Shown piece after piece: positions 21,054 through 27,328 of a stretch of DNA of 64,000 nucleotides. The notes under the pieces are model-generated. The model was given only the letters and a program-made list of their open reading frames with translations. It made no database searches and was not told the DNA's origin. The stretch lies in contig NC_019974.1 of assembly GCF_000328685.1 (NCBI RefSeq), positions 2,595,001 to 2,659,000 on the forward strand, given 5' to 3'. Position 1 is the stretch's first letter; every line of letters starts with the position of its first letter. This stretch comes from Natronococcus occultus SP4 (lineage in GTDB: Archaea > Halobacteriota > Halobacteria > Halobacteriales > Natrialbaceae). The position numbers were made by a program, and so were the translations under genes.

Positions 21054-21836
21054 CTACTCCGCTTCGGGGATCGCTTCGGATTCGACGTACGGCAGCTCGC
21101 GGGCGGTGTCCCGAACCGCGCCAGCGTTCGACTTCATCAGCGCCGTCGTGTCCCAGACGCCCTCGACTAAGGCCTTGCGCTGGGCGTCGTCGACGGTGAC
21201 GTCGATCGTCTCCTCCCCGTAGGTGACCGTTTCGGCCGCGACGTCGATCTCGACGTCGCCGTCGGGGTTCTCGTCGACCCAGTCCTGGAGCGCCTCGATC
21301 GTCTCGCCATCGGCCGTGACGGTCGGAATGCCGAGCGCGAGGCAGTTGCCCGCGAAGATTTCGGCGAAGCTCTCGCCGATGATCGCGTCGATCCCCCAGC
21401 GCATCAGCGCCTGCGGGGCGTGCTCGCGCGAGGAGCCACAGCCGAAGTTCGAGTTGACCACCATCACCGACGAATCCTGGAACCGCTCCTCGTTGAACGG
21501 GTGGTCCTTCTGGTCGTCGTCCTCGTCGAACCGCTGGTCGAAGAAGGCGAACTCGCCCAGCCCGTCGAAGGTGACGACCTTCATAAATCGCGCGGGGATG
21601 ATCTGGTCGGTGTCGATGTCGTTACCCCGGATCGGAAGTCCGGAGCCCGACACGTGGTTGACCTCGGGGATCTCTACGTCGTCGCCGCCGTCGGTTCGGA
21701 TCTCCCGATCCTCGGCGGTGCTCGCGGGCGTTCGCCCGTCTTCTTGCGGGCTTTGCCCGCTCGAATGGTCCGCGGAGCGTTGCTCCGCGCTACTCGCTCG
21801 TTCCGAGGACTCGCTTCGCTCGTCCTCGCGGCTCAT
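21054..21836 (-). CDS. leuD: LeuD: 3-isopropylmalate dehydratase small subunit with N-terminal insertion
   Basis: 260 residues; the usual length is about 200. The conserved core starts near residue 60 ([18 protein letters not shown]) and includes [19 protein letters not shown], the swivel-domain signature of LeuD, which pairs with LeuC to isomerise isopropylmalate. The first ~50 residues are a low-complexity S/E/R/Q/D stretch encoded by four consecutive DNA hairpins (21724-21828). The ATG overlaps the leuC stop as ATGA, so the insertion is probably translated. It is the last gene of the tightly packed ilvB-leuD cluster. Confidence 0.92.
21724..21828 (-). repeat. Palindromic insertion element copy 2 (four hairpins in leuD)
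   Basis: Four perfect or near-perfect hairpins in 105 bases: stems at 21804-21828 (7 bp, GAGGAC core), 21771-21789 (8 bp, loop AAC on the coding strand), 21746-21760 (6 bp, GCGGGC) and 21724-21739 (6 bp, CGGGCG). On the coding strand the first hairpin ends in CG and is followed directly by GAACGAGCGAG, as in copies 1 and 3. The whole block is an in-frame insertion near the N-terminus of leuD. Confidence 0.8.
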
Positions 21837-23260
21837 CGTGCGGTCACCTCCGCTTCCGGCAGCTCACGAACGTCGGTCACTTCGCCCGTGATCGCCGCCG
21901 CGGCGACCATCCGCGGGTTCATCAGGACGGTCCGACCGTCCTTCGACCCCTGGCGACCGACGAAGTTCCGGTTCGAGGACGAGGCGCAGGCCTCGTCGCC
22001 CTCGAGCTGGTCCTCGTTCATGCCCAGACACATCGAGCAGCCGGCGTTGCGCCACTCGAAGCCGGCCTCCTCGAAGACGTCTTTGAGCCCTTCCTCCTCG
22101 GCGGCCTCCTGGACGCGCTGGCTGCCGGGAACGACGAGCGCGCGGACGTGGGGGTGAACGTCACGACCTTCGACAATGCGGGCCGCGCGACGCAGGTCGG
22201 GCAGACGGGCGTTGGTACACGAGCCAAGGAAGGCGACGTCGATGTCGTACCCCTCCATCGTCTCGCCGGGCTCGACGCGCATGTGTTCCTGGGCGCGTCG
22301 CGCGGTGTCTTGCTTGTCCGCGGGCAGCGCCTCGGGCTCGGGAATCGAATCGGTGATACCGATCCCCTGGCCCGGGGTCGTCCCCCAGGTGACGACCGGC
22401 TCGAGCTCGTCGGCGTCGATGTGGACGACGTCGTCGTACTCGGCGTCCTCGTCGCTGCTGATCGACTCCCAGTACGGTTTGAGCTCCTCGAAGCGCTCGG
22501 GATTCTCCTGGAAGTAGTCGGTCCCCTCGAGCCACTCGTAGGTGGTCTCGTCGGGGTTGACATAGCCCGCACGGGCGCCGCCCTCGATCGACATGTTACA
22601 GATCGACATCCGACCCTCCATCCCCAGCTCCTCGATCGCGGAGCCGGCGTACTCGTAGACGTAGCCGACGCCGCCCTCGGTACCCAGTCGGCGGATGATC
22701 TCGAGGATGACGTCCTTCGCCTCGACGCCGTCGCCGAGTTCACCCTCGACTTCGATCTTTCGCACCTTCTGCTTCTCGAAGGCCAGGGTGCCCGTCGCGA
22801 GGACGTCCCGAATCTGGCTGGTGCCGATGCCGAAGGCGAGCGCGCCGAAGGCGCCGTGAGTCGAGGTGTGGGAGTCGCCACAGACGATCGTCTTCCCGGG
22901 CTGGGTCAGCCCCTGCTCCGGGCCGACGACGTGGACGATCCCCTGGTCCCCGCTGTTGGGGTCCGAGAACTCGATGCCCGCCTCGCGGACGTTCTCCTCG
23001 AGCTCGCTCATCATCTCCTCGGCGGCGTCCTCGTCATAGGGACGGGACTGATCCGCCGTCGGGATGATGTGATCGACCGTCGCGTGGGTTAGCTCGGGGT
23101 AGGCGACCTCCAGATCCCGCTCGCGGAGCATCCCGAAAGCCTGCGGACTTGTGACCTCGTGGATCAGGTGGAGACCGACGAACAGCTGGTCCTGTCCGGT
23201 CGGCAGCGTCGTCACCTTGTGGCGGTCCCAGACCTTGTCGTACAGCGTTCCCTCGCTCAT
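21833..23260 (-). CDS. leuC: LeuC: 3-isopropylmalate dehydratase large subunit
   Basis: 475 residues, aconitase superfamily. It isomerises 2- to 3-isopropylmalate with LeuD. Iron-sulfur cysteines are visible in [14 protein letters not shown] and [12 protein letters not shown]; other family markers are [37 protein letters not shown] and [11 protein letters not shown]. The protein has a normal length. Its ATG overlaps the stop of the upstream 96-aa ORF and its stop overlaps the leuD start, so translation of the three is coupled. Confidence 0.96.
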
Positions 23261-23548: not shown

Positions 23549-24593
<1,045 letters not shown>

Positions 24594-24601
<8 letters not shown>

Positions 24602-25262
24602 CGTCTGCGTGGGTGTACTGCTGGGTCTGGTTCGCCTTGTCGGCGGACGATTCTGGCGGCGTCGGTGCCGCGGTGTCGGCGGTGCCACGGGCAAGCGCGG
24701 TCGTCCCGGTTCGGGCGATCTCGCGGATGCCGAACTGGGAGAACGTCTCGATCGCGGCCTCGATCTTCTGGCGGGCGCCCGTGATCTCGAAGGTCGCCGT
24801 CTCGGGGCTCGAGTCGACGGTCTTGGCGTCGTACATGTCCGCGACCGCCGCGACCTGGTCGGGTCGCTCGGCGTTGACCTTCACCAGGGCGAGCTCGCGA
24901 CGCATCGCGTCGGGATCGAGCTCCCGAACTGCGATCGCCGGCAGCAGCTTCCGCAGCTGCTTTTTGATCTGGTCGATCCCCGGGTCGGGCTCTTCGACGA
25001 CCAGCGTGATCCGCGCGCGGCCGTCCTCGTCCGTCGGGCCCACCGTCAGGCTCTCGATGTTGAACTGCCGTCTCGAGAACAGTCCCGAGACTTCGGCCAG
25101 CACGCCGGGCTCGTGTTCGACCAGCGCCGAGATGACGGTCCGTCGGGGCTCGCGTCGCGCCTCGACCTCGGGGTCGATGCGGATCCCCTGCTTGGTCCGT
25201 CGGCCGGCAGGCGTCGGGCGCTCCTCGGGAGCGGGTCCGTCGAGGCCCTGGTCCCGTGTCAT
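24594..25262 (-). CDS. ilvN: IlvN: acetolactate synthase regulatory subunit
   Basis: 222 residues, longer than the ~160-180 of many IlvN proteins. An N-terminal extension (~40 residues) precedes an ACT domain ([32 protein letters not shown]), which binds valine in the family and confers feedback inhibition on IlvB. A second conserved C-terminal domain follows ([27 protein letters not shown]), then an Ala/Thr/Gln tail. It overlaps ilvB by 4 bases. Confidence 0.94.
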
Positions 25263-27082
25263 AGTTGGTCCTCCGCCAGCGCGAACTGACCGTTGTCGCC
25301 GCCGCTTGGCACCATCGGATAGACGTTCGCCTGCGGATCGATGTGGACGTCGATCACGGAGGGACCGTCGTAGGCCAGCGCGGCGTCAATGGTGTCTGCG
25401 ACCTCGTCGTAGTCGTCGATCCGGTAACCGGACGCGCCGAAGGCCTCGGCGAGCGTGTCGAACTCGGGCATCCAGCCGTAGTCCGACGCCGAATGACGGC
25501 CGTCGAAGAAGGCGTCCTGCCACTGCCGGACCATCCCGATGTACTCGTTGTTGAGCACGGCGACCGTGATATCCAGGTTCTCGCGGACGGCGACCGACAG
25601 GCCCTGCAGCGTCATCAGGAACGAGCCGTCGCCGTCGATACAGACGACCTCCTGGTCGTCGTCGGCCGCGAAGCGAGCGCCGATCGCCGCCGGCAGGCCG
25701 TACCCCATCGCACCCAGTCCGTGACTCGAGACCCAGGTTCGGGGCTCGGTGTAGGTCCAGTACTGGCAGGCCCACATCTGGTGTTGGCCGACGCCGGTGG
25801 TGACGACCGCGCGGTCGCTCGTAGCCTCGTCGAGGGCTTCGACGACGAACTGCGGTTTGATCGGTTCGTCCTCGGGGGCCTCGTAGGCCATCGAGTAGTC
25901 GGACTTCCACTGCTGGCACTGGGCACGCCACTTCGTCGCCTGTGGCGACTCGTCGACGGCCTCGGCGAGCTGTTCGACGACGGTACCGGCGTCGCCGATC
26001 AGCGGGTAGTCCGCGTGGATGTTCTTGCTGATCTCGGCGGGATCGATGTCGACGTGGATGATCTCCGCGTCGGGCGCGAACGTCTCGATGCCGCCGGTGA
26101 GCCGGTCGTCGAACCGGGTGCCGACGGCGATCATCGTATCGCAGTGGGTGATCGCCATGTTGGCGTAGCCGGTGCCGTGCATGCCGGCCATCTCCATCGA
26201 GAGCTCGTGGTCCTCGGGGAACGCGCCGATGCCCGGCATCGTCGTGACGACCGGAATCTCGTGTTCGATCGCGAACTCGCGACAGACCTCGCTAGCTTCG
26301 CCCTTGATGACGCCGCCGCCGAGTAGCATGATCGGTCGCTTGGCGTTTTCGACGCGTTCGGCTGCGGCGTCGACGAACTCGGGATCCGCTCGCTGCTGGA
26401 CCTCGTAGGTGTCGGGCGTTTGCGGCTCGTCGGGTTCGCGGTCGGTCTCGGCTTTCGTGACGTCTTTGGGCAGATCGACCAGCGTCGGCCCGGGACGGCC
26501 CTCGCTGGCGAGCGCGAACGCCTCGCTGACGTCGGTGCCGACGCGATCGGGCTCGCTCGAGAAGGTGTTGGTCTTCGTGACCGGCATCGTGACGCCCGTG
26601 GTGTCGGTTTCCTGGAAGGCGTCGTTGCCGACGAACTCGGTCGGCACCTGTCCGGTCAGCGCGACGACGGGATCCGAGTCCATGTCGGCGTCGGCCAGAC
26701 CGGTGACGAGGTTCGTCGCCCCCGGCCCCGAGGTCGCCAGGCAGATCCCCGGCTCCCCGGAGACGATGCCGTAGGCGTCGGCCGCGTGGGACGCCCCTTG
26801 CTCGTGGGCCATCGTCACGTGGTGGATCTCGGAGTCGTACAGCGCGTCGTAGACGGGCATGATCGCGCCGCCCTGCACGCCGAACGCGTGTTCGACTCCT
26901 GCGTTCTCGAGCGCGCGGACGACCGACTCGGCACCCGTCGTGACCGGGGTCGGTTCGGCGCCTGTCGCCGACTCGGCGTCGGCGTCCACGGTCCCGGTCG
27001 ACTCCGGTGGCTCGTCCCGTGGTGTCTCTTGGTCGTCGTGCTGTTCCTCGGTTGCGGTAACCGGTGGTGCGCGTTCGCTCAT
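25259..27082 (-). CDS. ilvB: IlvB: acetolactate synthase catalytic subunit
   Basis: 607 residues, thiamine-diphosphate enzyme catalysing the first common step of valine, leucine and isoleucine synthesis. Catalytic Glu lies in MAHEQGASHAADAYG; the ThDP motif is GDGSFLMTLQGL with a metal site at LNNEYIGMV. An acidic N-terminal ~50-residue extension is typical of haloarchaea. A strong Shine-Dalgarno AGGAGG sits six bases before the ATG, unusual for a first gene here and consistent with a leadered mRNA that carries the upstream leader ORF. It is the first enzyme gene of the ilvBNC-leuCD cluster. Confidence 0.96.
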   Translation of the reverse strand: MSERAPPVTATEEQHDDQETPRDEPPESTGTVDADAESATGAEPTPVTTGAESVVRALENAGVEHAFGVQGGAIMPVYDALYDSEIHHVTMAHEQGASHAADAYGIVSGEPGICLATSGPGATNLVTGLADADMDSDPVVALTGQVPTEFVGNDAFQETDTTGVTMPVTKTNTFSSEPDRVGTDVSEAFALASEGRPGPTLVDLPKDVTKAETDREPDEPQTPDTYEVQQRADPEFVDAAAERVENAKRPIMLLGGGVIKGEASEVCREFAIEHEIPVVTTMPGIGAFPEDHELSMEMAGMHGTGYANMAITHCDTMIAVGTRFDDRLTGGIETFAPDAEIIHVDIDPAEISKNIHADYPLIGDAGTVVEQLAEAVDESPQATKWRAQCQQWKSDYSMAYEAPEDEPIKPQFVVEALDEATSDRAVVTTGVGQHQMWACQYWTYTEPRTWVSSHGLGAMGYGLPAAIGARFAADDDQEVVCIDGDGSFLMTLQGLSVAVRENLDITVAVLNNEYIGMVRQWQDAFFDGRHSASDYGWMPEFDTLAEAFGASGYRIDDYDEVADTIDAALAYDGPSVIDVHIDPQANVYPMVPSGGDNGQFALAEDQL

Positions 27083-27201
27083 CGATATCCTCCTGCCGGA
27101 TTCGGGCGATACGTGCTGTTGGCTGATGTCATCTGGTGGATTGCGGGTCGCTCGGCGGTCGGTGCGACGGATACGGGCCGGGATCGAGGAAGGAGTTGGT
27201 G

Positions 27202-27219
27202 AGGGGCTAGTGGGCCCCT
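27202..27219 (-). promoter_or_regulatory. Hairpin at the end of the ilvB leader ORF
   Basis: On the minus strand AGGGGC-CCACTA-GCCCCT forms a perfect 6-bp stem whose loop contains the leader ORF stop TAG. A ribosome stalled on the preceding Ile/Val codons would cover this stem. Downstream GGCCC (~27170) could pair with GGGCC here as a competing structure. No U-tract follows, so a classic intrinsic terminator is not evident. Confidence 0.5.
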
Positions 27220-27293
27220 ACAATACGAATGCGAGCGAGCGCGTCGCTGTCGGCGTCGCGGGTGCGAACCGATCTGCGAGCGCGATCCGTCAT
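27207..27293 (-). CDS. Putative 28-aa leader peptide of the ilv operon
   Basis: A short ORF (MTDRARRS...ALARIRIVGAH) whose ATG lies where a leaderless mRNA would begin relative to an upstream TATA element (~30 bases). Its last codons include ATT, ATT and GTA: two isoleucines and a valine, each using codons rare in this GC-rich genome. The stop sits in the hairpin at 27202-27219. It resembles the actinobacterial ilvB leader MRTRILVLG by eye only. If translated, it could sense charged Ile/Val tRNAs and tune ilvBNC-leuCD. No translation evidence is available; it could be chance. Confidence 0.45.
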   Translation of the reverse strand: MTDRARRSVRTRDADSDALARIRIVGAH

Positions 27294-27317
27294 CACTCCA
27301 CTCGTAGGGTCGGGGAC

Positions 27318-27328
27318 TATCATAATAG
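27318..27328 (-). promoter_or_regulatory. Putative TATA element of the ilvB-leuD operon
   Basis: The minus strand reads TATTATGATA, an AT-rich island in GC-rich sequence, centred about 30 bases before the leader ATG at 27293 and about 240 bases before ilvB. This spacing predicts transcription starting at or a few bases before the leader ATG, with ilvB translated from its own Shine-Dalgarno. Confidence 0.5.

Follow-up and report, generated by a model that had tools for sequence, protein, structure and literature searches.

The window, by which we mean the whole stretch of 64,000 nucleotides that was analysed, carries a set of branched-chain genes on its minus strand. These are ilvB, which encodes the acetolactate synthase large subunit (25259..27082; Pfam TPP_enzyme_N/M/C), ilvN, which encodes the small subunit (24594..25262; ACT_AHAS_ss, ALS_ss_C), ilvC, for ketol-acid reductoisomerase (23549..24601; KARI_N/KARI_C), leuC (21833..23260; Aconitase) and leuD (21054..21836; Aconitase_C). 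In the product of the neighbouring leuA gene Pfam detected the HMGL-like and HCS_D2 domains only and the LeuA regulatory domain is absent, which agrees with an earlier note on this DNA, where LeuA had been described as lacking its leucine-binding regulatory domain.

A TATA-like promoter element, TATTATGA (27320..27327, minus strand), recognised from its sequence, sits between leuA and ilvB. Its TTAT lies 32 nt 5' of the ATG of a 28-codon mini-ORF, uORF1 (27207..27293, minus strand; ATG at 27293, stop TAG at 27209-27207), which is predicted to encode the leader peptide MTDRARRSVRTRDADSDALARIRIVGAH from a leaderless transcript. In the window uORF1 ends ATT CGT ATT GTA GGG GCC CAC TAG, and the first four of these codons (27219..27230) supply the putative regulatory codons for Ile, Ile and Val. 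They run into hairpin 1 (27202..27219), a 6-bp stem of AGGGGC (27219-27214) and GCCCCT (27207-27202) around the loop CCACTA; the loop ends with the first two letters of the stop codon, and the third, a G, closes the stem. A C-rich spacer (27133..27201), delimited by base composition, weak folding and scarcity of ATG, leads to a second mini-ORF, uORF2 (27079..27132), encoding MTSANSTYRPNPAGGYR, whose TGA overlaps the ilvB ATG (as ATGA). The Shine-Dalgarno sequence GGAGG (27089..27093) is inside uORF2, 6 nt 5' of the ilvB ATG.

Reading frame, terminal codons and hairpin of the ilvB leader

A covariance model of the leader end was built from 54 ilvB loci. It matched 283 of 292 haloarchaeal genomes, from 72 of 77 genera, and the leader element was present at 78 of the 80 named ilvB loci in the genome collection. 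The ORF, its terminal codons and the hairpin, for which the earlier note had looked to relatives, are therefore conserved throughout the class. In a phylum-wide sample of 295 genomes, 57 matched the model; only 8 of these lie outside the class, all weak (best E 0.018), and no convincing match outside the haloarchaea was found in this sample. Several of the inspected non-matching genomes (L294, L295, L297 and L298) carry a leader of diverged sequence upstream of ilvB, and L293 and L296 are weak matches to the model; in the other non-matching genomes inspected no leader was seen ahead of ilvB. The diverged leaders end, for example, in IAIVGA, SPIVGPA or SIRVRAAMAH directly before the stop, and their stem is altered yet intact. 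Comparison with the Rfam curated models (T-box and other riboregulators) gave no credible match.

For the frame test, the first ATG encountered 3' of the TATA element was taken blind to frame. In 69 of the 71 loci scored, which are from related species and not independent, this ATG shares its frame with the ATT-GTA-GGGG element, at 13 different distances ranging from 36 to 153 nt, and the two exceptions have an in-frame ATG 4-7 nt further 3'. The uORF1 frame contained 0 stops in 1669 codons, compared to 68 in one alternative frame. Chance is a very unlikely explanation because so many distinct lengths are represented. These results support uORF1 as a real, conserved leaderless leader ORF that is presumably translated. 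The spacing from TTAT to ATG is 29-32 nt in most of the scored loci, which suggests that the transcript begins at the uORF1 ATG, as had been proposed when the 28-codon ORF was placed at a leaderless start position below a TATA element.

The codon preceding GTA-GGGG encodes Ile in 77/77 ilvB leaders. Ile accounts for 19.5% of the last eight codons of these leaders and 2.0% of the earlier ones, and Val for 18.5% and 8.5%, respectively. Synonymous choice is skewed as well: within the last eight leader codons GTA was used in 119/155 cases (77%) and ATT in 106/121 (88%), compared to 11 of 262 Val codons (4%) and 7 of 119 Ile codons (6%) in six neighbouring genes of the window, and the terminal ATT, ATT and GTA are indeed rare codons here, as first claimed. 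The regulatory codons are few, with only 2-4 Ile, Val or Leu codons per leader, which is fewer than in the enteric ilv leaders.

Hairpin 1 can form in all 105 ilvB and valS leaders (the latter are described below), and in each of them the 5' arm is directly 3' of the regulatory codons. Its loop measures 3, 4, 6 or 9 nt. The mean predicted energy is about -12 kcal/mol. In 93 of the 105 leaders the stop codon, which had been noticed in the loop of the window's 6-bp hairpin, falls within the loop or the closing pair; in the remaining 12 it is beyond the hairpin. Certain genera of the Natrialbaceae have their stop 9-12 nt further downstream, with the freed positions paired instead (GGGGCG/CGCCCC). 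The four core pairs are invariant in the main alignment; covariation is weak in this set because the core stem is nearly invariant, and support for the hairpin comes instead from divergent lineages that keep it with a changed stem sequence (GGGCC/GGCCC, GGGGCC/GGCCCC or GGGGT/ACCCC).

A second, mutually exclusive conserved structure was not found, and the alignment consensus consists of hairpin 1 only. The GGCCC that had been put forward as a downstream competitor does exist (27179-27175, minus strand), but inspection by eye showed it just in the window and the closest relatives and not in the wider alignment, and it was rejected as a competing stem. There is no T-run after the hairpin, and TTTT occurs in only 28 of 78 spacers.

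The stretch TGTAGGGG and the CCCC are invariant in the 54 aligned loci, and the palindrome TGTAGGGG...CCCCTACA is near-perfect in the Haloferacaceae and some others, as might be expected if it were a DNA or RNA site for a regulatory protein and the ORF were incidental. We consider this improbable, as the palindrome is always 3' of the inferred start and in one frame with the first ATG, its outer half is missing in the Natrialbaceae, and some lineages replace the sequence and keep the stem and the codons. Two further points against a protein site come from the leaders of other genes.

Sister leaders ahead of valS and pheS

Whole-genome searches with the model revealed a second copy of the element preceding valS in the window's genome and about 20 others. 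The valS leader of the window's genome (L189:746-783, G000:C1, plus strand) reads MADSVELTARLDAARDAVFVGAP. In valS leaders GTA-GGGG-C and the hairpin are kept (GTAGGGGC...GCCCC) and the Ile is gone; its position is taken by TTC, CGT or GTA, which encode Phe, Arg or Val. Among 14 hairpin-type valS leaders that were scored, none has Ile before GTA. Val makes up 30% of the last eight codons, compared to 10% elsewhere, and Ile 0.7%. This replacement of Ile next to an otherwise retained sequence also speaks against recognition by a regulatory protein. The valS genes of Natrialbaceae have a second mini-ORF too, which overlaps the valS start. Three genomes (L206, L207 and L208) carry a different valS leader of 10-11 aa, MSA..SVVR.L followed by the stop, with the codons GTA GTA. 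Second matches to the covariance model in L188, L191 and L192 were judged to be due to chance.

A leaderless leader ending GFGFFF, with 3-5 Phe codons and a sequence unrelated to that of the ilvB leader, was present at 28 of 39 pheS loci; most are 25-28 aa long. In the window's genome (L224, G000:C1:2401064-2404897, reverse) it reads MASEPGDRCVVRQSATAQGFGFFFAR and its stop is exactly in a hairpin loop (GCCCGG-TAA-CCGGGC), and the stop is often in a hairpin loop in the other pheS leaders. That pheS shares the layout with a different sequence is the second point against a protein site. The upstream regions of ileS and leuS contain no comparable leader ORF. Leaders for Trp and Tyr were sought in 28 loci, and W-rich uORFs were found only at two trpS2 loci; these mini-ORFs (..CWRWHT.. 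and ..PWRWWSP.. in L277 and L285) are ahead of a second trpS-type gene and are possibly Trp leaders. The earlier note had overlooked the valS and pheS sister leaders, and also uORF2 and its coupling to ilvB.

Codon identity tracks the regulated gene, with Ile and Val for ilvB, Val only for valS and Phe for pheS. Ribosome stalling predicts such a match, and no other evidence speaks as strongly for amino-acid sensing through translation; on these sequence comparisons we hold it to be quite likely that uORF1 translation serves this purpose. The peptide rather than the codons might be responsible, if uORF1 encoded an arrest peptide (..IVGA/V) that stalled the ribosome near the stop, perhaps by binding a branched-chain amino acid; there is hardly any variation in the C-terminal IVG(A/V), and the stop is located at the hairpin. 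However, the constraint is on the nucleotides, including the wobble positions, the preceding residues are free to change in valS leaders, divergent lineages end IRVRAAMAH or PIVGPA before the stop, and pheS leaders end GFGFFF with differing tails, which makes an arrest peptide very improbable.

The spacer, uORF2 and a proposed mechanism

The spacers have a mean C content of 39% and G content of 19% and are weakly folded. They contain 2 ATGs in 6123 nt compared to 7 expected from dinucleotide shuffles, a depletion that is much milder by this control than by a mononucleotide control, and a spacer nearly free of ATG fits with the passage of ribosomes. About 75 nt separate uORF1 from uORF2. By the same frame-blind procedure as for uORF1, the first ATG after uORF1 shares a frame with the overlapping TGA at 70 of the 72 loci having an ATG, over 24 lengths, and a GGAGG-like site is found within uORF2 in many loci. 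The uORF2-ilvB pair, with its stop/start overlap and internal Shine-Dalgarno sequence, has the termination-reinitiation layout; in Haloferax, 4-nt overlaps with an internal Shine-Dalgarno sequence have been proposed as reinitiation sites (PMC3986360) and translational coupling of overlapping genes has been measured (PMC12548453). The strong Shine-Dalgarno sequence which the earlier note assigned to ilvB as a second cistron is present (GGAGG, 27093-27089), but it is inside the conserved uORF2 and does not simply serve a cistron that follows uORF1.

In the Haloferacaceae ilvB has neither uORF2 nor a Shine-Dalgarno sequence. The coupling step therefore differs between families and is not universal, and sequestration of the ilvB Shine-Dalgarno sequence is impossible as a common mechanism. 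A hairpin 2 adjoining this sequence was also set aside, as it occurs mainly in Natrialbaceae. A small hairpin inside uORF2, directly 5' of the Shine-Dalgarno sequence (about 27110-27095, minus strand), has several compensatory stem variants in Natrialbaceae and is weak in the window. In many Natrialbaceae the segment near the end of uORF1 that precedes the Ile codons (27251-27225, minus strand) is complementary to the ilvB start (27086-27065), with energies of up to -29 kcal/mol. This complementarity is weak in the window (rank 30 of 195 control windows) and absent in families other than Natrialbaceae, and is therefore only a lead.

It could be argued that both mini-ORFs merely bring ribosomes to ilvB by reinitiation, without sensing amino acids, since uORF2 overlaps ilvB and holds its Shine-Dalgarno sequence and the spacer is nearly devoid of ATG. 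We think there is very little chance of this, as it leaves unexplained the rare Ile and Val codons, the switch from Ile to Val at valS, the Phe runs at pheS and the hairpin at the stop.

The model that we favour is that uORF1 senses charged tRNA-Ile and tRNA-Val by ribosome stalling, and with the control exerted by the hairpin included it still appears likely from the sequence comparisons. The transcript would begin at the uORF1 ATG and a ribosome would translate the leader. When Ile or Val is scarce, the ribosome would wait at a rare ATT or GTA with this codon in the A site, and its footprint would hold the 5' arm AGGGGC in the mRNA channel. Hairpin 1 would be prevented from forming and ilvBNC-leuCD would be expressed, so that starvation raises expression. 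When Ile and Val are plentiful, the ribosome would reach the stop in the loop and leave, the hairpin would form and expression would drop.

The OFF step is the least certain part. We think it somewhat probable that the hairpin is the OFF element and, if it is, there is about an even chance that it acts by termination, as a leaky archaeal terminator or pause site, which is our first choice. A precedent comes from Haloferax, where 59% of transcripts were terminated in vivo by a hairpin lacking a T stretch (PMC7237163). The termination factor FttA prefers U-rich RNA (PMC11616081) and the spacer is C-rich, so a terminator of the U-run/FttA kind is weakly supported. The second choice, which we regard as possible but doubtful, is a block of translation, whereby the hairpin would prevent hand-over of the ribosome to uORF2, itself translationally coupled to ilvB. 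Coupling in Haloferax fades past 30-40 nt (PMC12548453), a distance exceeded by the gap of about 75 nt between uORF1 and uORF2, and this counts against hand-over. In the favoured model, the stalling of the ribosome, the occlusion of the hairpin and the direction of regulation are all what we infer from this arrangement.

Comparison with known systems and the leuA start

Ribosome-mediated attenuation is a textbook bacterial mechanism. We know of no archaeal case, and a literature search, the coverage of which was incomplete, found no report of leader-peptide attenuation in any archaeon. The E. coli ilvGMEDA, ilvBN and pheM-pheST attenuators have leader peptides with cognate codons, including a Phe-rich leader at pheS(T). 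The haloarchaeal leaders are alike in their cognate codons and in the Phe-rich leader before pheS(T), but no conserved terminator/antiterminator pair or intrinsic terminator was found in the haloarchaea. In yeast, reinitiation of the GCN4 type provides amino-acid control by means of several uORFs and a start-poor spacer. Both of these features are shared by the haloarchaeal leaders, although here the conserved parts are the cognate codons and the hairpin, and no kinase/eIF2 logic was evident.

Together with these enteric attenuators, the actinobacterial ilvB leaders of Corynebacterium, Mycobacterium and Streptomyces, which have candidate attenuators (PMC1262725, PMC11857589), come closest in design; they are similar in having a short ORF with Ile, Val or Leu codons that overlaps a hairpin. 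There the hairpin is followed by poly-U, whereas the haloarchaeal one has no U-run, and the leaderless start, the stop in the loop, the second coupling ORF and the archaeal host set the haloarchaeal system apart. In Streptomyces, no effect was seen when the candidate codons of the ilvB leader were altered (PMC1262725), which counts against the codon-sensing model. Start-site-supported uORFs in long 5'-UTRs of Haloferax volcanii have been listed, one of 26 aa for pheS and one of 23 aa for a tryptophan-tRNA ligase gene (PMC4983044, Table 2); that list gives neither sequence nor regulatory interpretation, and ilvB and valS are absent from it.

The arrangement had been read in the earlier note as the layout of ribosome-mediated attenuation, and of this reading the conserved leader, the cognate codons and the hairpin stand, but the competing antiterminator and the U-run terminator do not. 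Judged from its sequence features, the haloarchaeal leader would work like an attenuator; as it lacks these two structural features of the family, it is better described as a variant of bacterial attenuation than as a classical member. We tentatively suggest that these leaders form a haloarchaeal leader-peptide class of their own, a proposal to which we give somewhat less than an even chance. It would comprise the ilvB leaders for Ile/Val, the valS leaders for Val, the pheS leaders for Phe and perhaps trpS2 leaders for Trp, all leaderless, with rare cognate codons, one stop-in-loop hairpin and no U-run, in which the hairpin gates the passage of the ribosome or RNA polymerase to a second coupling ORF, and a leucine-dependent +1 slip at the start of leuA would act as a related sensor within this operon. 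If this is true, archaea couple translation to gene control in a like manner without bacterial terminators, and the leaders would allow transcription-translation coupling and termination by hairpins to be tested directly in vivo, in an archaeon that is experimentally tractable. The tuning of branched-chain synthesis where LeuA has no feedback domain would be explained as well.

The leuA gene (28636-27409, minus strand) has a leaderless ATG that is out of the enzyme frame in 75 of 79 loci (L002-L081). The frame-0 peptide in the window is MSSQGNPTSDTSQGGRVLPGHVRFH, an invariant CGAGTTCTTC is present at the leuA start region, and in 65 of the 79 loci there is no enzyme-frame ATG, GTG or TTG within 45 codons. 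Curators have noted a start problem in leuA (HVO_1510) and suspected slippage under leucine shortage (PMC8305020). From these sequences leuA is a candidate for class-wide +1 frameshifting, possibly leucine-dependent, in which a +1 slip may occur at a hungry Leu codon, CTT, so that TTC is read.

A small ORF (..VDHTPP..VFERG..) lies between ilvC and leuC in the window (about 23385-23257, minus strand). In genome G216 (L174) its homologue is located behind an ilvB-type leader of its own (..GARLIVGV, then the stop), which suggests that this small ORF is a member of the branched-chain regulon.
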